Below, piece by piece: positions 1 to 13,873 of a stretch of 64,000 bases of DNA. The position numbers and the translations under genes are program-made. Position 1 is the first letter of the stretch, and each line of letters starts with the position of its first letter. Under the pieces are notes generated by a model that did no database searches, was not told the origin of the DNA, and saw only the letters and a program-made list of their open reading frames with translations. The stretch spans positions 310,001 to 374,000 of the forward strand of contig JAFKEN010000005.1 in assembly GCA_017308515.1 (NCBI GenBank). Direction: 5' to 3'. The stretch is from Actinomycetales bacterium. GTDB lineage: Bacteria > Actinomycetota > Actinomycetes > Actinomycetales > Microbacteriaceae.

Positions 1-602
1 GGGGTCGCGCCGCGACGGCGGTACGCCTCGAGCAGCGAGGGCGCGAAGCCGACGACCGTCGCGCCCCAGTCGGCGGTGAAGCCGAGCATCGGCGAGCCGA
101 TGCGCTCGAACGCGTCGCGCATCGCGAGGATGCCCTCGTGCTTGCCGTGGTGGTGAGCGTGCACCTCGAGCGCGAGCGTGACGTTGCAGCGCTCGGCCAC
201 CGGCAGGATCTTCTCCATGAACTCCGGCGGCAGCGACGTCGGCGTGATGCGCGCGATCGGGAACCCGAGCCGCGCGGCGGCCTCGACCTGCGGGGTCATG
301 TAGTCGACGACCTCGTCGACGCTCATGATGCGCCGCGGATCGACGGCCCAGTCGCCGTTGAGTGCGAGCGAGGTGGGCACGAGGTCGAGCTCGGCCATGA
401 GGTCGCGGAACCAGCCGACGAATCGGTCGTCGAGCGCCGGGAAGTCGCGGATGCTGGAGAACCCGATGACCTCGACACCCGGCCCGAAGCCCTCGGCGGC
501 GACCTTGCGCAGCAGCCCTTCGAGGTCGTACTCGCGCCCGTGGAACGCGCGGGTGAAGCTGTAGAGGGTGACTCCCTGGACGGGGGTTCCGAGGTCGCTC
601 AT
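1..602 (-). CDS. C-glycoside deglycosidase alpha-subunit-like TIM barrel (partial)
   Basis: A sugar phosphate isomerase/epimerase-type TIM barrel whose C-terminal part lies beyond the window start; about 200 residues are visible. It has the family's N-terminal strand (GVTLYSF), a metal-ligand Glu in LALEVHAHH and an Asp in LGFTADWG. It aligns well with the C-terminal half of the two fused proteins at 9710-11185 and 11206-12495. Its ATG overlaps the stop of the DUF6379 gene upstream (ATGA at 599-602), so the two are translationally coupled, as expected for obligate alpha/beta subunits. In characterised systems (CarB, DgpC, DfgA) the alpha subunit carries the metal and cleaves the C-C bond of a 3-keto-C-glycoside. 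The family is clear; the exact substrate is inferred. Confidence 0.82.
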   Translation of the reverse strand, partial: MSDLGTPVQGVTLYSFTRAFHGREYDLEGLLRKVAAEGFGPGVEVIGFSSIRDFPALDDRFVGWFRDLMAELDLVPTSLALNGDWAVDPRRIMSVDEVVDYMTPQVEAAARLGFPIARITPTSLPPEFMEKILPVAERCNVTLALEVHAHHHGKHEGILAMRDAFERIGSPMLGFTADWGATVVGFAPSLLEAYRRRGAT

Positions 603-991
603 CGCTGGGCCGCCTTCATGGTCTTGGTGTCGTGCTCCTCGATCCGCAGCACGCCGTGGTCGGTGACGATGTAGGGGATGTAGAGCTTGAGCTCGACGTC
701 GACGACGTGCTCGGCGTCGGGGGTGACGGGCAGGTCGGCCGTCAGCACCGCCGAGTCGGTCGGGAACCACCAGTCGTCGGTGTCGCCGACCATCTCGTCG
801 AGGGTGCGGGTGCGCCCGTTCATCGTCCAGGTCAGCGACTCGGCGGGCGCCGCCACACCGTCGACCGACAGCCCCACCTCGGAGATGCACGAGGCGGGCA
901 GCGAGCGGTACCAGGGCAGACGCACTTCGACCGACACCGCCGATCCGGTCGTGGCGAGCGTGCCCTGCTCGATGATCCGATCGGGAATCAT
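599..991 (-). CDS. DUF6379 small protein, C-glycoside deglycosidase beta-subunit-like
   Basis: A 130-residue all-beta protein resembling the CarC/DgpB/DfgB family (DUF6379). It carries the family's early LPWYRSLP motif (around residues 25-32) and a late LKLYIPYIV motif. The ATG at 991 has a strong AAGGAGG-type ribosome site. The gene has its own promoter at 1037-1066 and overlaps the TIM-barrel gene downstream by 4 bp. In known C-glycoside deglycosidases this subunit packs on the TIM barrel and helps form the active site. The same domain is N-terminal in the fused proteins at 9710-11185 and 11206-12495, which supports the assignment from within the window. Confidence 0.85.
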   Translation of the reverse strand: MIPDRIIEQGTLATTGSAVSVEVRLPWYRSLPASCISEVGLSVDGVAAPAESLTWTMNGRTRTLDEMVGDTDDWWFPTDSAVLTADLPVTPDAEHVVDVELKLYIPYIVTDHGVLRIEEHDTKTMKAAQR

Positions 992-1026: not shown

Positions 1027-1066
1027 GGACTTCGACATATTATTGTTGGATTTCGACACAAGTCAA
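1027..1066 (-). promoter_or_regulatory. Promoter and 21-bp-spaced direct repeats before the DUF6379 gene
   Basis: On the minus strand a TTGACT -35 (1061-1066) and a TAATAT -10 (1037-1042) are separated by 18 bp, unusually close to consensus and AT-rich for this genome. Two near-identical 11-mers read on the plus strand, GGACTTCGACA (1027-1037) and GGATTTCGACA (1048-1058), lie exactly 21 bp apart, flanking and overlapping the -10. Two helical turns place them on the same DNA face, as for a dimeric regulator's tandem sites. The -35 overlaps the stop codon of the preceding gene. Which regulator binds is unknown. Confidence 0.6.
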
Positions 1067-2040
1067 TCGGAGCCGAGGGCACCCGCCACGATCGGGGCGA
1101 GCACGTGCTGCACCTCCCAGCCGTTGAGCATCGTGCTCGTCGGCGGGTGCGGCGAGAGGTCGCTCTCGACGACGATCCAGCCCGCGTAGTCGACCGCCGC
1201 GAGCTCGCGCACGACCGCCGCCGCATCGACGTGGCCCGGTGCGCCGAGCTCCACGAACCAGCGCGGGATCTGGCGCGAGCCCCCGGCACGCAGCACCGTG
1301 TACTCGGCCGCCGGCTGCAGGAACTCGTCGAGGTCGTCGACCGCCGCGGCGTTCTTCAGGTGCACGTGCCCGATGCGCGCGGCGTGCTCGCGCACCGCCT
1401 GCACCGGATCCCGCCCCGCCGCCGCGAACTCCGCGGTGTCGAGGGCGAGGCTCACGAGCGCGGTGTCGGTGGCCGCGAGCAGGCGCTCGAGCCCCTCGTC
1501 CCGGCGCAGCACGGAGAGGAAGTCGAGGTGCAGTGCGAGCCGCACGCCGTCCTCGGCGACCGCCGCACCGACCTCGTTCCAGCTCGCGGCGAGCGTCGCG
1601 ATCTCGGCGTCGCTGAGCGCGTCGCGACCGCCCGCCGCGGGTGCGGGGCGCGCCACGAGCACGTCGCCGCCGAGTTCCGCCAGCGCGCCGGAGAACCAGC
1701 GCGCGTGCGCCACGAGACCCGCACGCGCCGCGGGATCGAGGGGATCGTCGCCGTGGCTGAGGTCCTCGCCGAAGCGCGTCGCGGGATCCCAGAACCAGCT
1801 GCTCACCCCGTCGAGCGCGGCCTCGCGCACGAACTCGCCGAAGCCGGCGACCGAGCCGAAGTTGCGCTCGATCTGGGTCGGGTTGCCCAGCGGCTCCCAG
1901 CGCCCCGAACCGCTCGACAGCTCGACGGCGGAGAAGCCCGAGATCGACATGACCTGCAGCGCCCGCCGGTGCTGCCGACGCCGCACGAAGTCGTCGAACT
2001 GCGGCTTGAACTGGTTGATCGCGTAGCCCCAGCGGATCAT
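1063..2040 (-). CDS. Sugar phosphate isomerase/epimerase family TIM barrel
   Basis: A 325-residue AP-endonuclease-2/xylose-isomerase-like TIM barrel. Strand-end candidates for metal binding are Asp in LALHLDFL, Asp in SLALDTAEF, His in GHVHLKN and Glu in IVVESD; the first position lacks the usual Glu. The ATG overlaps the stop of the upstream isomerase gene (ATGA, 2037-2040). It is the last gene of the operon that starts with the binding protein at 8554. Proteins of this type isomerise, epimerise or dehydrate sugars, inososes or keto-sugars. Here it probably handles a keto-sugar released from a glycoside. The exact reaction cannot be read from sequence. Confidence 0.75.
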   Translation of the reverse strand: MIRWGYAINQFKPQFDDFVRRRQHRRALQVMSISGFSAVELSSGSGRWEPLGNPTQIERNFGSVAGFGEFVREAALDGVSSWFWDPATRFGEDLSHGDDPLDPAARAGLVAHARWFSGALAELGGDVLVARPAPAAGGRDALSDAEIATLAASWNEVGAAVAEDGVRLALHLDFLSVLRRDEGLERLLAATDTALVSLALDTAEFAAAGRDPVQAVREHAARIGHVHLKNAAAVDDLDEFLQPAAEYTVLRAGGSRQIPRWFVELGAPGHVDAAAVVRELAAVDYAGWIVVESDLSPHPPTSTMLNGWEVQHVLAPIVAGALGSD

Positions 2041-2996
2041 CGCGCCACCTCCTCGGCCGCGATCTTCTCGAGCACGTTCTTGGCGTACCAGCGCGCGATC
2101 GCGGTGGACTCCGCGTGATCCCCGCCGAGCTTGTTCGCCTTGTCGTGCTCGACGCTCAGCCAGCCGTCGAACCCGTGCCGGGCGACGGCGCGCATGAAGT
2201 TCTCGAAGTCGACGAGGCCGCCCTCGTCGCCCATCTCGTGGAACCACTTCTCGGTGGTCTCGGCCATGATCTCCGAGTCGGGCCGGCGCCGGTAGTCGCC
2301 GATCAGGTCGTGGTTTCGGGTGTCCTTGAAGTGGAACCCGGTCACCCGGTCGGCGTAGGCCTCGTAGAACTCGATCGGGTCGACGCTCGCGATGCAGTGC
2401 TGCGCCGTGTCGACGAAGAGGTTGACGTACGCCGGGTCGGTGTACCGATAGAAGGTGTCGAGCTCCGCGCGCGACTGGATGCCGCAGAAGAACTCGTGGT
2501 GGCAGGTGAGCTTGACCCCCGCGTCGAGCGTGATCGCGCCGACCTGGTTCCACAGCTCCGCGGTGTACTTGATCTTCTCCTCGGTGACCGGCTCCATGTC
2601 GTAGTAGAGCGTCGCCGGCATGACGATGATGTTGTCGAGCCGGATGCCCGACCAGCGGTCCATCGTGACCCGGAAGTCCTCGAGGATGTTCGGCCAGGTC
2701 TCGGGGATGTGCGGGGCGTAGACCCGCGGGTCGTAGTCGGCCGCGTGGAAGGTGTTGACGATCCGCTCGAGGCCGCGCTCCTGCACGAACTCCTGGTAGT
2801 TCGCGACCGAGCCGTACTCGCCCATGATCTGATACCAGCGGAAGTCGAAGGTGTCGATCGCGCGGTAGCCGACGGCCGCCACCTGCTTGAGGAAGCGGTC
2901 CATCGTGGTGCGCGACTCCCACTGGTCGATCGGCCCGTGGGGGGACTGGCTGCGCCAGTGGTCCATGTAGCTCCACTTGACGTCGAGGCCGCTCAT
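2037..2996 (-). CDS. Sugar phosphate isomerase/epimerase family TIM barrel
   Basis: A 319-residue TIM barrel with a likely metal site: His/Glu in LTCHHEFF, Asp in NLFVDTAQH, His in GFHFKDT and Glu in LSVEHDK. It overlaps both neighbours by 4 bp (the GMC oxidoreductase upstream at 2993-2996 and another isomerase downstream at 2037-2040), so the three are translated as a coupled set. The context with a CarA-like oxidase suggests it acts on an oxidised sugar or glycoside. It could also be a catalytic C-glycoside or O-glycoside cleaving subunit, but no DUF6379 partner lies directly beside it. Confidence 0.75.
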   Translation of the reverse strand: MSGLDVKWSYMDHWRSQSPHGPIDQWESRTTMDRFLKQVAAVGYRAIDTFDFRWYQIMGEYGSVANYQEFVQERGLERIVNTFHAADYDPRVYAPHIPETWPNILEDFRVTMDRWSGIRLDNIIVMPATLYYDMEPVTEEKIKYTAELWNQVGAITLDAGVKLTCHHEFFCGIQSRAELDTFYRYTDPAYVNLFVDTAQHCIASVDPIEFYEAYADRVTGFHFKDTRNHDLIGDYRRRPDSEIMAETTEKWFHEMGDEGGLVDFENFMRAVARHGFDGWLSVEHDKANKLGGDHAESTAIARWYAKNVLEKIAAEEVAR

Positions 2997-4537
2997 CGGG
3001 CGACCCCCGCCCCGGCGCCGAGCCCGGCCGCGATGGCGCGAGCGCCCCGCACCGCGAGCCCCACCGCGGTGAGCGTGGGATTGCACGCGGTCGCCGTCGG
3101 GATCACGCCGTTGCCCGCGACGTAGAGGCCGGGAACGCCCCAGACCGCGCTGTCGGGATCGCACACCGAGCGCCCGTCGTCCTGCGCGCCCATCCGCACC
3201 GCGCCCTGGTAGTGCAGCGAGGCGCCTCCGGGCAGGGTGAACGGCTTCTCGTCGAGGCCCTCGCCGACCGCCGCGCCGAGTTCGACGATGTGCGCACGGG
3301 CACGATCGAGGGTCGCCCGGTCGCGGTCGGTGAGGCGGTAGTGGATGCGCATGGCCGGCATCCCGTAGTCGTCGCGCTCGGCGTCGGAGAACTCGACGCG
3401 GTCGTCCCACTGCAGGTCCTTCGCGCAGAACAGGCCGAGCCCGACGATGGACCCGGGGATCACCGGGTCGTCGTCCGCGAGCGGCACCGGCGAGGTGTCC
3501 AGCTGCATGACCTGGCCGTGGAAGGGCTCCGCGTCGGTGAAGGGCACCCAGCTCACGCCGCTCGTCTCCGAGAGCGCCCCGGCACGCCCCTCGGCCGCGG
3601 CCGGCGGCTCGACGTCGCGCAGCCGCGCGGCGAAGACGACCTGCGGCTGGTCGTTGAGCATGCGGCCGAGCGCGGCCGGGCGCACGCCCGAGGCCCACAG
3701 CAGCTGCGGGGTGCGCAGCCCGTCGGCGGCAACCACGACGACCCGCGCGCGCACCGTGTGCGACTCGTCCGGGCTCCCGTCGCGCATGTCGCGGACCTCG
3801 ACACCGGCGGCGGCACCGTCGTCGCCGAGCAGCACCCGGGTCACGAGGGTCTCGTCGTGGAGCGTGAAGTTCTCGTTGCCGCGCGTGACGTCGCCGAAGA
3901 CGATGTCGGAACCCGACCACACGAGCGCGCCGTCGGCGCGGCGGTGCACCGCGAGCGGCATGCGCTGCACCCGGCGCTCGGCCGGGCGGCCGGCGTCGAC
4001 GGCGGCGGCGAGGCGCTGCCGCACGAGCTCGGCGAAGGGCGCGCCGTCGAAGGCGTCGACCGTGACTCCGAGCAGCCGCTCGCCCTCGTCGAGCAGCTCG
4101 TCGAGGTCGGGGAGGAAGCCGATGCGCTCGCTGTCACCCGGGCGCGGGCACGCGGCGGTCCAGTGCGCCGCCATGCCGCCGACGTTGCTCGAGAAGGCGA
4201 GCGCGGGGATCCCGTCCTCCCCCTCGAGCTGGAAGCCGTCGCGCAGCAGGTAGGTGCCCGCACGCGCGCGGCGCCCCGCCATCTCGACGGGCGAGGCCGC
4301 GGCACCGCCCGTGGCGCCCCGACCCTCGGAGCGGCGCTGCGCCTCGGCGCGCGCCTCGGGGTCGGCGATGTTCTTGACGTGCGATCCGGGCGGGTCGGAG
4401 ACCGTGGGCCCGACCTCGAACATCGCCACGCGCGCGCCGGGAGCGCGCTCGCTCAGGATGCGCGCGTACGCGGCGCCGGTCGGTCCGCTGCCGACGATCG
4501 CGACGTCGACCTCCGCGGGGTAGTCGCGGTCCGTCAT
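2993..4537 (-). CDS. GMC-family FAD oxidoreductase, CarA-like
   Basis: A 514-residue glucose-methanol-choline oxidoreductase. The Rossmann FAD motif GSGPTG is at residues 16-21. The C-terminal catalytic pair is visible as His442 (SLHYQG) and Asn486 (CNPTLT). There is no signal peptide, so it acts in the cytoplasm. In Microbacterium and Arthrobacter the GMC enzyme CarA oxidises the sugar C3 hydroxyl of C-glycosides such as carminic acid, which primes C-C cleavage by CarBC. The presence of CarB/CarC homologues in the same island makes this the likely role. A pyranose-oxidase or 3-dehydrogenase activity on O-glycosides is the alternative. It overlaps the genes on both sides by 4 bp. Confidence 0.82.
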   Translation of the reverse strand: MTDRDYPAEVDVAIVGSGPTGAAYARILSERAPGARVAMFEVGPTVSDPPGSHVKNIADPEARAEAQRRSEGRGATGGAAASPVEMAGRRARAGTYLLRDGFQLEGEDGIPALAFSSNVGGMAAHWTAACPRPGDSERIGFLPDLDELLDEGERLLGVTVDAFDGAPFAELVRQRLAAAVDAGRPAERRVQRMPLAVHRRADGALVWSGSDIVFGDVTRGNENFTLHDETLVTRVLLGDDGAAAGVEVRDMRDGSPDESHTVRARVVVVAADGLRTPQLLWASGVRPAALGRMLNDQPQVVFAARLRDVEPPAAAEGRAGALSETSGVSWVPFTDAEPFHGQVMQLDTSPVPLADDDPVIPGSIVGLGLFCAKDLQWDDRVEFSDAERDDYGMPAMRIHYRLTDRDRATLDRARAHIVELGAAVGEGLDEKPFTLPGGASLHYQGAVRMGAQDDGRSVCDPDSAVWGVPGLYVAGNGVIPTATACNPTLTAVGLAVRGARAIAAGLGAGAGVAR

Positions 4538-6236: not shown

Positions 6237-7172
6237 TCAGACCTCCGCTCGCGGTGCGGTCACGCGCTGCTGCAGCACCGCGAAGAACAGGATGATGACG
6301 GTCAGCACGAGCGCGAGCGCCGCGCCGTAGCCGAAGTTGCCCAGCGCGAAGGACTGCTTGTAGACCTGCGTCGCGAGGTTCTCGGTCGCCCCGGCGGGGC
6401 CGCCGCCGGTGAGGGCCATGATCTGGTCGAACACCCGCAGGCCGTTGACGAGTCCGAGCGTCGTCGCGATCGCGACCGCGGGGCGGATCGACGGGAACAC
6501 GACGTTCCAGAAGCGCTTCCACATCCCGGCGCCGTCGAGCGCCGCCGCCTCCTCGATCTCGACCGGCACCGAGGCGAGGCCCGCGAGGTAGATGACCATC
6601 GCGAACCCGGTGTTCTGCCAGGTGATGACGACGAGCACGGTCCAGATCGCCCAGGTCGGGTCGGCCGTCCACGAGGTGACGAGGTCGCCGAGGCCGACCG
6701 ACTTCAGCACCAGGTTGATCGGGCCGTTGTAGTCGAAGATGAACTTCCAGATGTACGAGACCGCGAGCGGGCTCAGCACGACCGGCATGAAGAAGAGGGT
6801 GCGCAGCGCGAGGCGGGTGCGCAGGCCGCGGTTCAGGGCGACCGCGAGCAGCAGCCCGGCCACGTTGGTGAGGATCACCGAGCCGAACGCGAGGAAGAGC
6901 GTGTTGAGCAGGGCGCCGATCTTCGAGGGGTCCTGGAAGATCTTGACGAAGTTGTCGAACCCGATGAACTCGAAGGAGCCGATCCCGCTCCAGTTGGTGA
7001 AGGCGAAGAAGCCGCCGATCGAGGTCGCGACGTAGTGGATCCCGAGCACCAGGAGGATGCCGGGCAGCGCCCACCACCAGTGGCCGAACTTCATGAGCCG
7101 GTTGCGGTCGGTCGCGGCCGGACGGGCCGCGCGAGCCGCCGTCGCCGGGCGGGCGGGCGTCGTGGTGGTCAT
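6237..7172 (-). CDS. Sugar ABC transporter permease, MalF type (CUT1)
   Basis: A 311-residue permease with an N-terminal cytoplasmic Ala/Thr/Arg-rich tail of about 30 residues, six or so membrane segments and an EAA loop (EAAALDG). It is the first permease after the binding protein gene, separated from it by an intercistronic hairpin (7209-7243). It forms the membrane channel together with the product of 5396-6232. Length and topology are normal for CUT1 MalF-like subunits. Confidence 0.92.
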   Translation of the reverse strand: MTTTTPARPATAARAARPAATDRNRLMKFGHWWWALPGILLVLGIHYVATSIGGFFAFTNWSGIGSFEFIGFDNFVKIFQDPSKIGALLNTLFLAFGSVILTNVAGLLLAVALNRGLRTRLALRTLFFMPVVLSPLAVSYIWKFIFDYNGPINLVLKSVGLGDLVTSWTADPTWAIWTVLVVITWQNTGFAMVIYLAGLASVPVEIEEAAALDGAGMWKRFWNVVFPSIRPAVAIATTLGLVNGLRVFDQIMALTGGGPAGATENLATQVYKQSFALGNFGYGAALALVLTVIILFFAVLQQRVTAPRAEV

Positions 7173-7208
7173 GCTGCTCTCGCGTCGTCGGGAGGGGGTT
7201 TCAGGGTA

Positions 7209-7243
7209 CGTCCGCCCGGGGTGCGTGACACCCCGGGCGGACG
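7209..7243 (-). terminator. Intercistronic hairpin after the binding-protein gene
   Basis: A perfect 15-bp inverted repeat (arms 7209-7223 and 7229-7243, loop CGTGA) between the binding protein stop and the first permease start. There is no T-tract. As in malE-malF, such a hairpin may let the binding protein be made in excess over the permeases, by partial termination or by protecting the upstream mRNA from 3' decay. Confidence 0.7.
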
Positions 7244-7261
7244 TCGGTCATCGCTGCGGGA

Positions 7262-8554
7262 TCACTGATCCCAGGCGGCGTCCATGGCGGACAGCACGTC
7301 GTCGATCGACTTCTGACCGGTCAGCAGACCCTGCACGCCGGTGCCGAGCGCGTCGTAGACGGCCGGGTTGGGCCAGACGTTGTTCGGCAGGGTCGTGTAG
7401 GAGCCGTCGGCCAGCAGACCCACGATGGGCTCGTAGATGGTGCCGGTGAGGTCCATCTGCTGGTAGGCCGAGACGGGCAGCTCGCCGGAGTACTCGTAGT
7501 ACTTCTGCTGGGCCTCGTCGCTCGCCATCCACTCGAGGAACTTGGTCGCGGCGTCCTTGTGCTCCGAGGCCGCGTTGATCGAGAGGGTGTAGTTGGTGCT
7601 CGCCAGGATGAACGGCTTGCCGCCGTCCTCGGCCGGGAACGGCTCCACCTGGAAGTTCGCCTCCGGCGGCGCCGCCGCGGCGATCTCGATCGCCGCACCC
7701 GAGGGGATGAAGCCGCCGACCGAGGTGCCGCCCGAGAGGCCGTTGGTGATGGCGTCGAAGCCGCCGCCCTCGACCCCGGCCTGGAAGCAGCCCGCGTCCT
7801 TCAGGTCGATGACCGTCTGGAGGGTGTCGATCCAGCCCTTGCTGTCGGCGAAGGTGACCTTGCCGTCGATGCGCTGCTGGTTCCAGTCCGGCGTCTCGGC
7901 GTAGACGCGGGTGGCCGCGATGGCCTGCGTCATGAGGCCGGTGTTCGGCGGCGCGGCGCCCGCGACGGCGAACAGCGAGCCGCCGGCGGCGGCGAAGGTG
8001 TCGCACGACGCGTAGAGGTCGGTCATGTTCTCGGGCCACGTGAAGTCGGTCACGCCCATGCGGAACGGGTTGCCGAGCGAGGCGACGACCGAGCCGATCG
8101 TGAAGTCGAGCGGCTGACCGTAGGTCTTGCCGTCGACCTGGAACAGCGACTCGCTGCCGCTGGGCACGAGGGAGGTCGCGGTGTCGCCGAGCGGCTCGAG
8201 GAAGCCGGCCTCGGCGAGGCCCACGAGTCCGCGCGCGTCACCCGAGCCGGGCGTGGTCTGGATGACGTCGGACGCGTTGCCCGCCTGCAGCTGGGTGCGG
8301 ACGGTCTCGCCGTACTTGTCGTTCGGCGTCGGGTTCGTCGTGATGGTGACGTCGGGGTTGGCCGCCATGTAGTCGTTCGCGAGCTTCTGGTACGGGCTCT
8401 CGAGGTTGTTCGACGTGGCGAAGGTGAAGGTGAACTCCTGCGCTCCGGAGTCTCCCCCGGAGTCGCCGGAACATCCGGCGAGGAGCAGAGCGCTCGCGGC
8501 GGAGACGGCGAGGACGCCGGTCCACATCGCACGCGCACGGCGGTGCTGGGTCAT
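7262..8554 (-). CDS. Extracellular sugar-binding lipoprotein of ABC transporter
   Basis: A 430-residue family 1 solute-binding protein. The start at 8554 is chosen over 8668 because AGAAAGG precedes it and a classic lipoprotein signal follows: basic N-terminus, hydrophobic core, LLLAGC lipobox, then a Gly/Ser/Asp linker. It would be anchored outside the membrane and deliver sugar or glycoside to the permeases at 5396-7172. It is the first gene of a long operon running to 1063 (transporter, Hyi-like, GMC oxidase, two isomerases), so its ligand is probably the substrate of that pathway. A LysR gene is divergent from it. Confidence 0.92.
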   Translation of the reverse strand: MTQHRRARAMWTGVLAVSAASALLLAGCSGDSGGDSGAQEFTFTFATSNNLESPYQKLANDYMAANPDVTITTNPTPNDKYGETVRTQLQAGNASDVIQTTPGSGDARGLVGLAEAGFLEPLGDTATSLVPSGSESLFQVDGKTYGQPLDFTIGSVVASLGNPFRMGVTDFTWPENMTDLYASCDTFAAAGGSLFAVAGAAPPNTGLMTQAIAATRVYAETPDWNQQRIDGKVTFADSKGWIDTLQTVIDLKDAGCFQAGVEGGGFDAITNGLSGGTSVGGFIPSGAAIEIAAAAPPEANFQVEPFPAEDGGKPFILASTNYTLSINAASEHKDAATKFLEWMASDEAQQKYYEYSGELPVSAYQQMDLTGTIYEPIVGLLADGSYTTLPNNVWPNPAVYDALGTGVQGLLTGQKSIDDVLSAMDAAWDQ

Positions 8555-9709: not shown

Positions 9710-11185
9710 TCAGCCGGAGGCCGTGGAGCGCATGGCCGAGCGGATGAGGTCGTGCTGGCGCCGCACGAGCAGGAGCGGATCCACCTCCCCCGCTTCGGCG
9801 AACGCGTGGCCCTCCCACTCGCTCGACCAGTAGCCGCGATAGCCGTTCTCGACGAAGACCCGCACGTGCTCCGGGTAGTCGATCGCCGGCTCCTGCCCTG
9901 ACGGGTCGATGTCGTAGAACTTCGCGTGCACGTGCAGGATCTGCGGCATGATGTCGGCCCACTCGTGCGGATCGACGTGCCCGTGCATGTTGAAGGCGAG
10001 GTGGGCGAACGAGCCGAGTCGGCCGGGATCGAAGTCCCGCCCGCGGAGGTACCCGATGAACTCCTCCTGGCGCTCGCGCATCGGGGCGTCGGTGGCCCAG
10101 ATCGCCTGCAGGCGCGCGACCGCCTCGTCGTCGAGGCCCGCGCGGCGCACCGCGCGCAGGAGCGTCGGCGACATCGCGTGCATGGTGGACGAGAAGTCGG
10201 CCACGAAGCCCAGCAGCGGCGAGTCGAGCTCGGAGTAGACCTCGCGCACGGCGAGGATCTCGGGGGCGTTCGGCCCCATCGGCGCGTGGATCTCGTAGGC
10301 GAGCTTCAGGTCGAGCTCCTCGGCGATCGGCAGCAGCCGTCGCAGCAGCTCCGGCTTCGCGCTCTGGATGCGCACGAGCGGAAAGCCGAGTCGCTTCGCC
10401 CCGCGGAACAGGAGCTCGCTGAACTCGAACTCCTCGTCGGGGGTCATGTCGCGATCGCGGCGGCGGCCCATGTCGAGGTTCGCCCCGAAGGAGCTCGCGT
10501 CGAATCCGTGCCGATCGAAGGCGGCGCGCCAGGTGCGCTCGAAGCCGTCGTCGACGAGCGGGTACTGCGGCAGCATCTGGGAGGCGACGATCTCGATGCC
10601 CGGTCCGATCCCGAGCTCGGCCACCCGATCGAGCAGCCCGTCGAGGTCGTACCAGCCGGATCGGAATTCGACGCTCGCCGAGTAGAGCGTCAGTCCGAGT
10701 CGGAACGGGTCCGCCTCCGACGCGGGAGGCGGCGCCGAGACCTCGCCGATCGTGACGGGGGGCGCCGCGTCGCGGTCGGTCACGGTGAGCTCGAGCTCCT
10801 GGCGCACGACGTTGGGCACGTAGATCCCCGGTCCGCCGTCCTGGCCGGGCGCGATCTGCATGTACGGCAGCCGCAGCTCACCCGCGACGCCGATCCGGCG
10901 CACGTCGCCGATCGCCACCGGTTCGGCCCGCGGGACGACGAGCAGCGGGTGCTCCTGCAGGAACCAGAGCGTCTCGCTCTGCTCGGGCAGCTCGTCGAGG
11001 CGATAGCGACGCCCGCCCAGCTCGAGACGCAGGTCGCCCGCGGGCACCTCTTCGCCGTCCACCGTGACGCCGAGCGAGCTGACCGAGGAGAGCCAGAGAC
11101 TGCGGTACCAGGGCAGATCCAGCCGGAGCGCGAGACCCTCCGGGTGCGGGCGCAGGCTGTCGGAGGTGATGAGTCCGTTGGGCAT
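9710..11185 (-). CDS. Fused DUF6379-TIM barrel protein (single-chain C-glycoside deglycosidase-like)
   Basis: A 491-residue protein. Residues 1 to about 135 match the DUF6379 beta subunit (LDLPWYRSLW near residues 23-32, later ELRLPYMQI). After a Pro/Ala-rich linker (about 150-165), a TIM barrel begins at FRLGLTLYS and runs to the end. Likely metal ligands are Glu in LAYEIHAP, Asp in LGFVADFS, His in LHVHAKFYD and Glu in WSSEWEG. The domain order equals the gene order of the split pair at 1-991. It would be a one-chain version of CarBC/DgpBC that cleaves 3-keto-C-glycosides. A second fused paralogue follows upstream at 11206. The ribosome site is weak; translation may be coupled to the upstream gene 20 bp away. 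Confidence 0.82.
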   Translation of the reverse strand: MPNGLITSDSLRPHPEGLALRLDLPWYRSLWLSSVSSLGVTVDGEEVPAGDLRLELGGRRYRLDELPEQSETLWFLQEHPLLVVPRAEPVAIGDVRRIGVAGELRLPYMQIAPGQDGGPGIYVPNVVRQELELTVTDRDAAPPVTIGEVSAPPPASEADPFRLGLTLYSASVEFRSGWYDLDGLLDRVAELGIGPGIEIVASQMLPQYPLVDDGFERTWRAAFDRHGFDASSFGANLDMGRRRDRDMTPDEEFEFSELLFRGAKRLGFPLVRIQSAKPELLRRLLPIAEELDLKLAYEIHAPMGPNAPEILAVREVYSELDSPLLGFVADFSSTMHAMSPTLLRAVRRAGLDDEAVARLQAIWATDAPMRERQEEFIGYLRGRDFDPGRLGSFAHLAFNMHGHVDPHEWADIMPQILHVHAKFYDIDPSGQEPAIDYPEHVRVFVENGYRGYWSSEWEGHAFAEAGEVDPLLLVRRQHDLIRSAMRSTASG

Positions 11186-11205
11186 GGGGGTGATTCCGTC
11201 CACGC

Positions 11206-12495
11206 TCAGAGCGCGGAGGCGACCCGTCGCATGAGGGCGTGCTGGCGGCGCACCTGCTCGATCGAGCGCCACGGGTCGCGCTCGCCCTCGTACTCGCTCG
11301 AGAGGTAGCCGCTGTAGCCGGCGTCGCGCAGGCCGCGCAGCACCGGCTCCCACGGGATCTGCTGGTCCTCGAGGTTCTCGTCGATGTCGTGGAACTTCGC
11401 CTGCACGAACACGACGTACTCGCCGATGTCCTTCAGGTCGGCCGGGTCGACGCCGATGCCGTCGAGGAACGCCGGGCGGGTCTCGCGGGTCTCGCCGGCC
11501 CGCAGCGGGATCGGGCGGTCTTGGAAGATCCCGGTGTCGATGAGCAGGCCGAAGTGCTTCGTACCGGTGCGCTGGATGAGCGCGATGTAGTCGTCGACCA
11601 CCGGGTGCTTGATCGGGGTCGGCGAGTGGATCTCGGGGCAGATCACGACGTCGAGCTCGGCCGCCAGGTCGAGGCTGCGCTCGACCGACTCGGTCCAGAT
11701 CGGGTGCGGGATGAGGTCGCTCGAGACGACGCCGATCTTGGGTCGCACGAACCGGAACCCGAGCGTCTTCGCCAGGCGCAGATCCCGCTGCAGGATCGCG
11801 GCGCCCTGCTCGGCGGTCATGTCGCGGTCGGGGTGCAGCCGGGTGTCGATCCACGAGCCGTAGTTGGTCGGCTCCAGACGGTACTTCTCGAGAAGGCCGA
11901 ACCAGGCGTCGATCCAGGCGGCGCTCGGCTCCGGGTAGCCGGGGATGTGTCCCTCGCCGAGGATCTCGATGCCGGTCGCGCCGACGTCGGCGATCCCGGC
12001 CATCGCGGTCTCGAGATCCATCACCGTGCCGAAGTCGTGCATGTGGCTGTAGAGCGAGACGCCGTAGCGGAACGGCCCGCCGTCGAGCTCGGAGCTCAGG
12101 GTGACGTGGCGGGTCTCGCGGAAGCGCGAGGGCTGGTGCTCGATCGGGATGTACGACATCCGCAGCAGCAGCTCGACCTCGACCTCGTGCGCCCCCTCGG
12201 GCAGCCCGCCGGGGTGCGGCACCGTGACGATCGCGGCCTCCTCGAGCGGCCAGCGCACGCCCTCGCTGCGCTGCACCTCGGCGAGCGAGAACTCGCGGCC
12301 CTGGAGGGTCCAGCGGGGGACGTCGGCCGGCACGTCGACGAGGTTCCCGACCCGCACCACGACCCCGTCGATGAGCGAAGCGGACATGCCGCGGTAGGAG
12401 GGCATCCGCAGTCGCAGCTGGAAGCCCGTGACCTCGCCGCCTTCGCGCACGTTGCGGAAGCCGACCGACTGGATGAGGGATCTCTCGAGAAGCAT
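11206..12495 (-). CDS. Fused DUF6379-TIM barrel protein, second paralogue
   Basis: A 429-residue paralogue of the 9710-11185 protein with the same layout. The N-terminal DUF6379 domain (residues 1 to about 140) has LRMPSYRGMSA where the relatives have LPWYRSL, and LLRMSYIPIE later. The TIM barrel starts near FRYGVSLYSH. Ligand candidates are Glu in VICPEIHSP, Asp in GLLIDTGIF and Glu in LSSEYEG. The segment matching HVHAK in the other copy reads FVQAK, so a His is replaced by Gln. The ATG at 12495 is supported by a GGAG close upstream. It is probably the first gene of a two-gene operon. The two copies differ a good deal, so they may act on different glycosides. Confidence 0.8.
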   Translation of the reverse strand: MLLERSLIQSVGFRNVREGGEVTGFQLRLRMPSYRGMSASLIDGVVVRVGNLVDVPADVPRWTLQGREFSLAEVQRSEGVRWPLEEAAIVTVPHPGGLPEGAHEVEVELLLRMSYIPIEHQPSRFRETRHVTLSSELDGGPFRYGVSLYSHMHDFGTVMDLETAMAGIADVGATGIEILGEGHIPGYPEPSAAWIDAWFGLLEKYRLEPTNYGSWIDTRLHPDRDMTAEQGAAILQRDLRLAKTLGFRFVRPKIGVVSSDLIPHPIWTESVERSLDLAAELDVVICPEIHSPTPIKHPVVDDYIALIQRTGTKHFGLLIDTGIFQDRPIPLRAGETRETRPAFLDGIGVDPADLKDIGEYVVFVQAKFHDIDENLEDQQIPWEPVLRGLRDAGYSGYLSSEYEGERDPWRSIEQVRRQHALMRRVASAL

Positions 12496-12673: not shown

Positions 12674-13873
12674 GTGAACCCCTCCGACTGGCTCGAGCGC
12701 ACCCGCTCCGAGGCCGAAGTGTCGGGATTCGAGGTCCTCGGCCACCACGACCTCGGCGGGCACGGCGACGGGTTCCAGGTGATCCGGCGGGGCGACGCGC
12801 TGTACGTCGCGCACCTCGGTCAGAGCCCGATGGCCCTGTCGATCCTCGACGTCTCCGACCCCCGCGCGCCGCGCCTGGTGCGGCAGCTCCCGCACCCCGA
12901 GAACACCCGCTGCCACAAGGTGCAGGTCGTGGGCGGTGTGCTGATCCAGAACAACGAACTGCCGTACTGGGCCAGCGGCGAGGCGACCACCGGGCTGTCG
13001 GTCTACGACGTGAGCGACCCGTGGGATCCGCGCCCGATCGCCTTCCACCCCTCGAGCGGCGAGGGCGTGCATCGGCTCTGGTTCGAGCAGGCGCCGTACG
13101 CGCACATCGCCGCGTTCAAGCCCGGCGGTCGCAAGCACGGCTACGAGATCGTCGACCTCTCCGACCCGGAGCATCCGGCGACGGTGGGCACCTGGTCGGC
13201 ACCGGGCACCTTCGACGCCGACGAGGAGAGTTGGTGGCGCGGGGCCCCGCAGGAGCAGGTCGGGGTGCACGCCGCGATCGCGCACGGTGACCGCGCCTAC
13301 GTCGCGTGCATGGACGCGGGCCTCGTGATCCTCGACATCTCCGATCTCGCGCACCCGCGATTCGTGAGCCGGGTCTCCTGGTCGCCCCCGTACGGAGGCT
13401 TCGCTCACACCACGCTCCCGCTACCGGGCCGCGGACTCGTGATCGCCAGCGCGGAGGGGCTGCCGCCGCAGATGCAGGGCGGCGACAAGCGGATCTGGGT
13501 GATCGACGTGCGCGAGGAGGAGCATCCCGTGATCATCGGCACCCTGCCGGAGCCGGTGCCCGACCCGTCGACCGGGCTCACCTCCTATCACGAGCGGCCC
13601 GGCGTCTTCGGGCCGCACAACCTGCACGAGAACCGCCCCGGCAGCTTCGCGAGCGAGGAGCGGATCTTCGCGACCTACTCCAACGCCGGCGTGCGGGTCT
13701 GGGATATCGAGAACGCCTTCCATGCGACCGAGATCGCGCACTTCGTGCCCCCCGCCTGGCCGGGCACCGAGGCCTCGCTCATGAACGACCTGTTCGTCGA
13801 CGCCGACGGCACCACCTTCGTCACCGACCGCGCGGGCGGCGGTCTCTACGTGCTGCAGTACACCGGGGAGTGA
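12674..13873 (+). CDS. LVIVD-repeat beta-propeller protein
   Basis: A 399-residue protein built of repeats like LSILDVSDPRAPRLV, LSVYDVSDPWDPRPI, YEIVDLSDPEHPATV and LVILDISDLAHPRFV, the hallmark of LVIVD beta-propellers. No signal peptide is seen, although family members are often exported. The GTG start has GAAGGAGA directly upstream (12662-12669). It is followed 4 bp later by a flavin monooxygenase gene and is divergent from the fused deglycosidase-like gene. Conserved His and Asp/Glu residues (HPENTRCHK, GPHNLHENRP) suggest metal or ligand binding. The biochemical role is unknown; LVIVD proteins do turn up in catabolic clusters for plant aromatics. Confidence 0.8.
   Translation: MNPSDWLERTRSEAEVSGFEVLGHHDLGGHGDGFQVIRRGDALYVAHLGQSPMALSILDVSDPRAPRLVRQLPHPENTRCHKVQVVGGVLIQNNELPYWASGEATTGLSVYDVSDPWDPRPIAFHPSSGEGVHRLWFEQAPYAHIAAFKPGGRKHGYEIVDLSDPEHPATVGTWSAPGTFDADEESWWRGAPQEQVGVHAAIAHGDRAYVACMDAGLVILDISDLAHPRFVSRVSWSPPYGGFAHTTLPLPGRGLVIASAEGLPPQMQGGDKRIWVIDVREEEHPVIIGTLPEPVPDPSTGLTSYHERPGVFGPHNLHENRPGSFASEERIFATYSNAGVRVWDIENAFHATEIAHFVPPAWPGTEASLMNDLFVDADGTTFVTDRAGGGLYVLQYTGE

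Follow-up and report, generated by a model that had tools for sequence, protein, structure and literature searches.

C-glycoside deglycosidases (CGDs) are described as acting after oxidation of the sugar at the 3-position, with the 3-keto-C-glycoside then cleaved by β-elimination at a site that includes a set of metal ligands and a tyrosine, Tyr39 of PuCGE (PMC8563793, PMC10628242 and PMC13273386). Both EuCGD (DfgAB, 7BVS) and PuCGD/PuCGE (DgpBC, 7BVR and 7EXZ) perform metal-dependent cleavage of 3-keto-C-glycosides (PMC8563793, PMC10628242) and are assembled from separate chains in an α4-β4 arrangement (PMC8563793). AgCGD2 (AgCarB2-C2) from Arthrobacter globiformis is an α-β heterodimer, again of separate chains, and CarBC (MiCGD) from a soil Microbacterium also consists of two chains (PMC8563793). 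The Deinococcus aerius CGD (8QVC and 8UMC, with families assigned from chains A and B of 8QVC) is likewise a two-chain enzyme. The window analysed here, a stretch of 64,000 nucleotides from an Actinomycetales bacterium of the family Microbacteriaceae (contig JAFKEN010000005.1, positions 310,001 to 374,000), contains two adjacent genes, P0001 and P0002, that each join the same two domain families within one chain. Given their domains, closest structures and active-site residues, the two products are probably one-chain CGDs, that is, 3-keto-C-glycoside lyases. The genes and their domains lie at the following window positions:

11206–12495, minus strand: P0001, fused CGDB-TIM barrel protein of the 8QRZ type, 429 aa, from the ATG at 12495 through the stop codon
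12121–12495, minus strand: β-like domain of P0001, residues 1–125, Tyr34 corresponding to PuCGE Tyr39 by alignment
11209–12078, minus strand: α-like TIM barrel of P0001, residues 140–429
9710–11185, minus strand: P0002, fused CGDB-TIM barrel protein of the AgCGD2-like subfamily, 491 aa, from the ATG at 11185 through the stop codon
10811–11185, minus strand: β-like domain of P0002, residues 1–125, Tyr27 corresponding to PuCGE Tyr39 by alignment
9713–10711, minus strand: α-like TIM barrel of P0002, residues 159–491

An earlier sequence-only reading had proposed that each gene encodes a β subunit (DUF6379) N-terminal to a TIM barrel, and the open frames together with the Pfam matches bear this out. 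The CGDB family (PF19906, C-glycoside deglycosidase beta subunit), the current name of DUF6379, matched residues 3–115 of P0001 (E 1e-32) and 16–108 of P0002 (E 3e-13), and AP_endonuc_2 matched residues 168–418 (E 3e-16) and 186–469 (E 1e-7; 32.0 bits, cut-off 31.1) respectively. NCBIfam gave zero matches for P0001 and P0002 as well as for P0003 and P0004, a split β and α pair at the window edge that is described below. Identity between P0001 and P0002 is only 26% over 483 alignment columns, and they are therefore no recent tandem copy.

For P0001, a phmmer search against PDB sequences returned 8QRZ chain A (E 2e-223 over residues 1–428), and also 8UN2. These entries, released 2025-04-23, are titled "Microbacterium testaceum C-glucosyl deglycosidase (CGD)", wild type; both are single chains of 435 aa, and the first 102 residues of 8QRZ match a gene of M. 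testaceum NS220 exactly. The AlphaFold model of P0001 (27 sequences, mean predicted local distance difference test score (pLDDT) 86.4, predicted template modelling score (pTM) 0.88) superposed on 8QRZ with a Z score of 49.8 and 1.8 Å over 425 residues, with 75% identity in the structural alignment and a template modelling score of 0.95. P0001 is thus predicted to be a single chain, β then α, with the fold and domain placing of 8QRZ. With a one-chain relative already solved and matched over its whole length, the architecture is not new, and the suggestion of novelty in the sequence-only reading fails for P0001. DfgA (7BVS A, E 9e-61) matches P0001 better than DgpC does (7BVR A, E 6e-29).

The nearest solved relative of P0002 is the two-chain AgCGD2 (7DNM/7DNN), with E values of 1e-126 for α and 9e-29 for β. 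An AlphaFold model of P0002 (33 sequences, mean pLDDT 80.8, pTM 0.81) aligned to AgCGD2 α (7DNM A) over 332 residues at 3.5 Å (Z 35.2) and to AgCGD2 β (7DNN B) over 130 residues at 2.0 Å (Z 20.0), each match covering one domain. Within its own genome, however, the closest relative of AgCGD2 that was seen is not P0002 but a split α gene upstream of the window (L005 13459–14493, E 2e-192). The only fused chains among the solved structures listed for P0002 are 8QRZ and 8UN2, both of the other subfamily, with 24–29% identity between 8QRZ and P0002 in structural alignments and a domain placing that differs from that of the P0002 model. No fused CGD was described in the excerpts of open-licence literature searched, and a P0002-type fusion may be in print elsewhere.

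The predicted active sites were compared through alignment to AgCGD2, with residue numbering and the metal site of one His, two Glu, one Asp and one Lys taken from PMC8563793:

P0001: E288, H290, D320, Q365, K367 and E401, corresponding to AgCGD2 E147, H149, D179, H269, K271 and E305
P0002: E298, H300, D330, H420, K422 and E456, all as in AgCGD2 (E147, H149, D179, H269, K271 and E305)

P0002 shares with AgCGD2 the five metal ligands (Glu147, Asp179, His269, Lys271 and Glu305) and the His149 of the EIH motif, each of which is kept in 86/86 P0002-type fused rows of the sequence sets described below. From the E-x-H motif, H300 of P0002 probably corresponds to PuCGE His143. The β-domain tyrosine, lost in PuCGE Tyr39 variants with nearly all C-glycoside cleavage gone and O-glycoside cleavage little affected (PMC10628242), is present in 86/86 P0002-type rows and, across the P0001, P0002 and P0004 subfamilies, in all 225 β rows, fused and split.

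In the proposed mechanism, the sugar would first be oxidised at C3 by the neighbouring GMC oxidase, after which β-elimination by the fused enzyme would release the aglycone from the 3-keto-C-glycoside. The aglycone pocket and the Tyr would come from the N-terminal β-sandwich domain, and the acid-base His and the site for a divalent metal from the C-terminal TIM barrel. The active site of P0002 would lie within one chain, the substrates of both proteins would be C-glycosides, and the fusion would fix a 1:1 pairing of cognate halves.

Several observations weigh against this assignment. The metal ligand His269 is absent throughout the P0001 subfamily, where Gln occupies the position in 75/75 rows of the fused clade and 17/17 split sisters, and the metal or the reaction may therefore differ; 8QRZ, by sequence alignment to P0001, has Gln there too, whereas EuCGD and PuCGD/PuCGE have His. 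No published activity for 8QRZ came up in the literature search. Finally, the P0002 model aligned to 8QRZ over 393 residues at 15.7 Å, the two domains not superposing together.

Genome contigs were scanned with P0002 as the seed, and the best 80 of 139 confirmed loci were classed with β and α profiles built in this analysis; the counts are therefore biased towards sequences close to P0002. A P0002-type fusion was found at 77 of the 80 loci, a P0001-type fusion at 64 and both at 63. The 77 P0002-type fusions are 74–84% identical to P0002, bar one (L108, 63%), and their loci belong to Microbacteriaceae (61), Micrococcaceae (13), Demequinaceae (1) and genomes without a named family (2). The remaining three comprise split loci in Microbispora (L116) and Geodermatophilus (L119), and one locus (L110), truncated at a contig end and unclassed. 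This last locus comes from a metagenome-assembled genome labelled Fulvimarina. Its fused genes are of the actinobacterial type, with 77% identity to P0002 across the portion present, and the contig may be mis-binned.

The P0002-type gene is immediately preceded by a P0001-type fusion in 65 of 86 rows and by the split form of that type in nine, one of which (L053) is merely truncated at a contig end; none was seen in the other 12, which include the window's own copy because its row stems from a short locus. One P0001-type fused gene, at 6446–7791 on the plus strand of locus L159 (genome G363), looks broken, with its barrel across two frames, and a split copy is also present. Outside Actinomycetota, split relatives of P0001 were seen on Croceicoccus and Novosphingobium plasmids (L161 and L162), in the order α then β and near TonB-dependent receptor genes.

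CGDB matches were found in 26/398 sampled genomes of the window's family and 5/394 genomes of its class, and P0001 matches in 5/396 genomes of its phylum, the window's own genome being included in each count. A fused set was present in 21 of the 26 CGDB genomes of the family (P0001-type in 13, P0002-type in 19 and a third class in three), and eight of the 26 combine a split P0001-type set with a fused P0002-type set. Genomes of the family with at least three CGDB matches had a fused set in 21/22 cases, versus 0/4 of those with a single match.

The joins between the domains are near-constant within each type. Measured from profile to profile, the β-α spacer is nine residues in 73/74 P0001-type fused rows and 30–33 residues in 83/86 P0002-type rows. 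The split sisters of the P0001 type have β then α in 15/17 cases, and at 15/15 printed junctions of these split sets the β stop lies at or close to the α start (start picked by eye); the fused spacer therefore roughly equals the old β tail plus the old α head. No ATG occurs between residues 114 and 150 of P0001 or between residues 110 and 168 of P0002, and in-frame GTG codons are found near the join of P0002 at 123, 127 and 135.

Trees were built from 255 α barrels (164 labelled fused and 91 split), after removal of rows shorter than 270 residues, scoring below 60 bits or duplicating another row, and from 235 β domains, after removal of those under 85 residues or identical. In the α tree (FastTree), the fused rows fall in three places, namely the P0001 type, the P0002 type and the third class. 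The P0001 type comprises 75 α rows and has split pairs from sphingomonads and actinobacteria as its neighbours. Of these 75 rows, 74 were seen fused; the remaining row, L053, begins at a contig end with its β part unseen and is labelled split. FastTree support for this clade is 0.97 for both the 75 α rows and the corresponding 71 β rows. The P0002 type comprises 86 α rows; next to it stand 26 split rows, among them the AgCGD2-like gene from the window's own genome. Support for the P0002-type fused clade is 100/94 in IQ-TREE, 0.82 in the α FastTree and 0.25 in the β FastTree. The grouping of both types agrees between the β and α trees, which is what separate fusion of each type from its own partners would predict. 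In a 56-row subset, with groups named after the first tree was seen and with a long-branch warning, a joint clade of P0001- and P0002-type fused rows was rejected (log-likelihood 375.7 lower, approximately unbiased test p-AU 0.0002). The P0001 type may have fused once or more than once: in the IQ-TREE analysis of the same subset, the best tree has two changes within this group, and 22% of the bootstrap trees have a single one.

The four fused rows of the third class form no single clade, at low support. This divergent CGD-like class includes a set upstream of the window (L005 7694–9085, plus strand; G000:C4) and members at L127, L135, L152 and L194; 4/12 rows are fused and 8/12 are labelled split, with a partner β found for 6/8, and the set is split in the window's own genome. 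Its α rows have Gln for His149 (12/12) and its β rows mostly Ile for the Tyr (8/10), and the metal ligands are kept. Other reactions may be performed both by the third class and by the P0001 subfamily, whose metal site contains Gln. Taken with the trees, a tentative and rather doubtful proposal is that two CGD subfamilies of one cluster at the least, and perhaps three, underwent fusion independently, keeping cognate halves together amid up to five paralogous α/β sets; against fusion for the sake of pairing, shared descent of the cluster alone could explain why fused sets accompany higher numbers of CGDB matches.

The alternative that survives best, and to which we would give slightly less than an even chance, is that P0001 and P0002 perform one reaction on different aglycones or attachments, for example C6- versus C8-glycosides, with the cluster forming a substrate-range set of five α/β units. 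Consistent with this, the window's own genome has two fused and three split α/β sets, C6/C8 preference varies among soil enzymes (PMC8563793), and the P0001 type departs from AgCGD2 at the pocket residues S124 and N248 of the latter, a region in which the alignment is less sure. This proposal refines rather than opposes the assignment of both proteins as one-chain deglycosidases.

It is unlikely, in our estimation, that the P0001 type carries out another step, such as 2-hydroxy-3-keto-glucal hydration or 3-keto-O-glycoside elimination, with P0002 responsible for C-C cleavage and the tandem genes encoding consecutive steps. Such a division would fit the frequent tandem arrangement, with a fused gene of the P0001 type immediately preceding the P0002-type gene in 65/86 rows. 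It would also fit the occurrence of Gln in place of the metal-binding His in 92/92 rows of the P0001 subfamily, compared with His in 86/86 P0002-type fused rows, 26/26 of their split relatives and 27/27 P0004-type rows. However, the P0001 subfamily keeps the catalytic His, the four other ligands and the β Tyr, the residue whose loss spares O-glycoside but not C-glycoside cleavage (PMC10628242), and 8QRZ, with the identical Gln, was deposited as a CGD. It is highly improbable that assembly errors or frameshifts have turned split pairs into apparent fusions, or that an internal start yields a separate α: a small error could join split pairs whose β stop adjoins the α start, and the GTG codons of P0002 remain, but the fusions recur across the loci with near-constant joins, neither join contains an ATG, and 8QRZ, as one chain, refutes the idea for P0001.

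The probable one-chain CGDs share their cluster with split genes and other features, listed here by window position:

1–602, minus strand: P0004, 5' part of a split α subunit gene that runs beyond window base 1
599–991, minus strand: P0003, split β subunit gene, CGDB, 130 aa, with an ATGA overlap with the next gene
1063–2037, minus strand: TIM-barrel protein (AP_endonuc_2), weakly like IolE and the 2-hydroxy-3-keto-glucal hydratase 8RO4 (E 4e-4)
2037–2975, minus strand: TIM-barrel protein (AP_endonuc_2), weakly like IolE and more weakly still 8TCS/8TCD
2993–4537, minus strand: GMC oxidoreductase of the glycoside 3-oxidase type (7QF8, E 1e-232; 7DVE, E 6e-228)
12674–13873, plus strand: LVIVD-repeat protein, divergent from P0001
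13878–15008, plus strand: FAD-binding monooxygenase-like gene, divergent from P0001

The unfused third pair at 1–991 had been noted in the sequence-only reading as β then α with a 4-bp ATGA overlap, and both genes and the overlap were found: P0003 ends CGA TGA and P0004 starts ATG AGC, with the common ATGA at 599–602. Outside the window P0004 is complete, at 370 aa (L005 14490–15602). It had been suggested that the fusions could arise from exactly such a layout. The β-then-α order in 15/17 split sisters of the P0001 subfamily, with the α start at or close to the β stop, partly favours that idea, but the pair at 1–991 belongs to another subfamily. This pair is unlikely to be the parent of either fusion, as the P0004 α subfamily is split in 27/27 rows of the α tree and each fused group adjoins its own split relatives in the α and β trees.

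The cluster thus includes a glycoside 3-oxidase homologue, judged by sequence only, and the GMC oxidase at 2993–4537 is the likely maker of the 3-keto-glycoside. Its matches 7QF8 and 7DVE we take to be PsG3Ox and CarA, although the names shown in the PDB differ. In Pseudarthrobacter siccitolerans, PsG3Ox is described with adjoining CGD homologues (PMC10646112). The region upstream of the window contains a split α gene resembling that of AgCGD2, a SnoaL-like gene, a CGDB-matching β gene, an oxidoreductase of the Gfo/Idh/MocA type and a protein of glyoxalase fold that weakly matches extradiol dioxygenases. From these neighbours, the genes upstream fit use of the C-glycoside, and perhaps of the aglycone too. 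The AgCGD2-like split set itself (L005 12244–14493, minus strand) has the reversed order of α, SnoaL-like gene and β. In 12/26 rows of the AgCGD2-like split group β lies 200–1000 bases behind α, the intervening gene having been looked at in the window's own genome only.

What remains beyond the known record is a second, separately fused subfamily represented by P0002, a conserved tandem pair and the Gln metal site. The last is a concrete point on which the P0001 subfamily differs from the catalytic site known from earlier work. These loci combine fused and split copies within a single cluster, apparently through more than one fusion event, and would offer a natural set in which to test what fusion changes. 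One-chain forms would be simpler catalysts than the two-chain CGDs for removing, or in reverse making, aryl C-glycosides.

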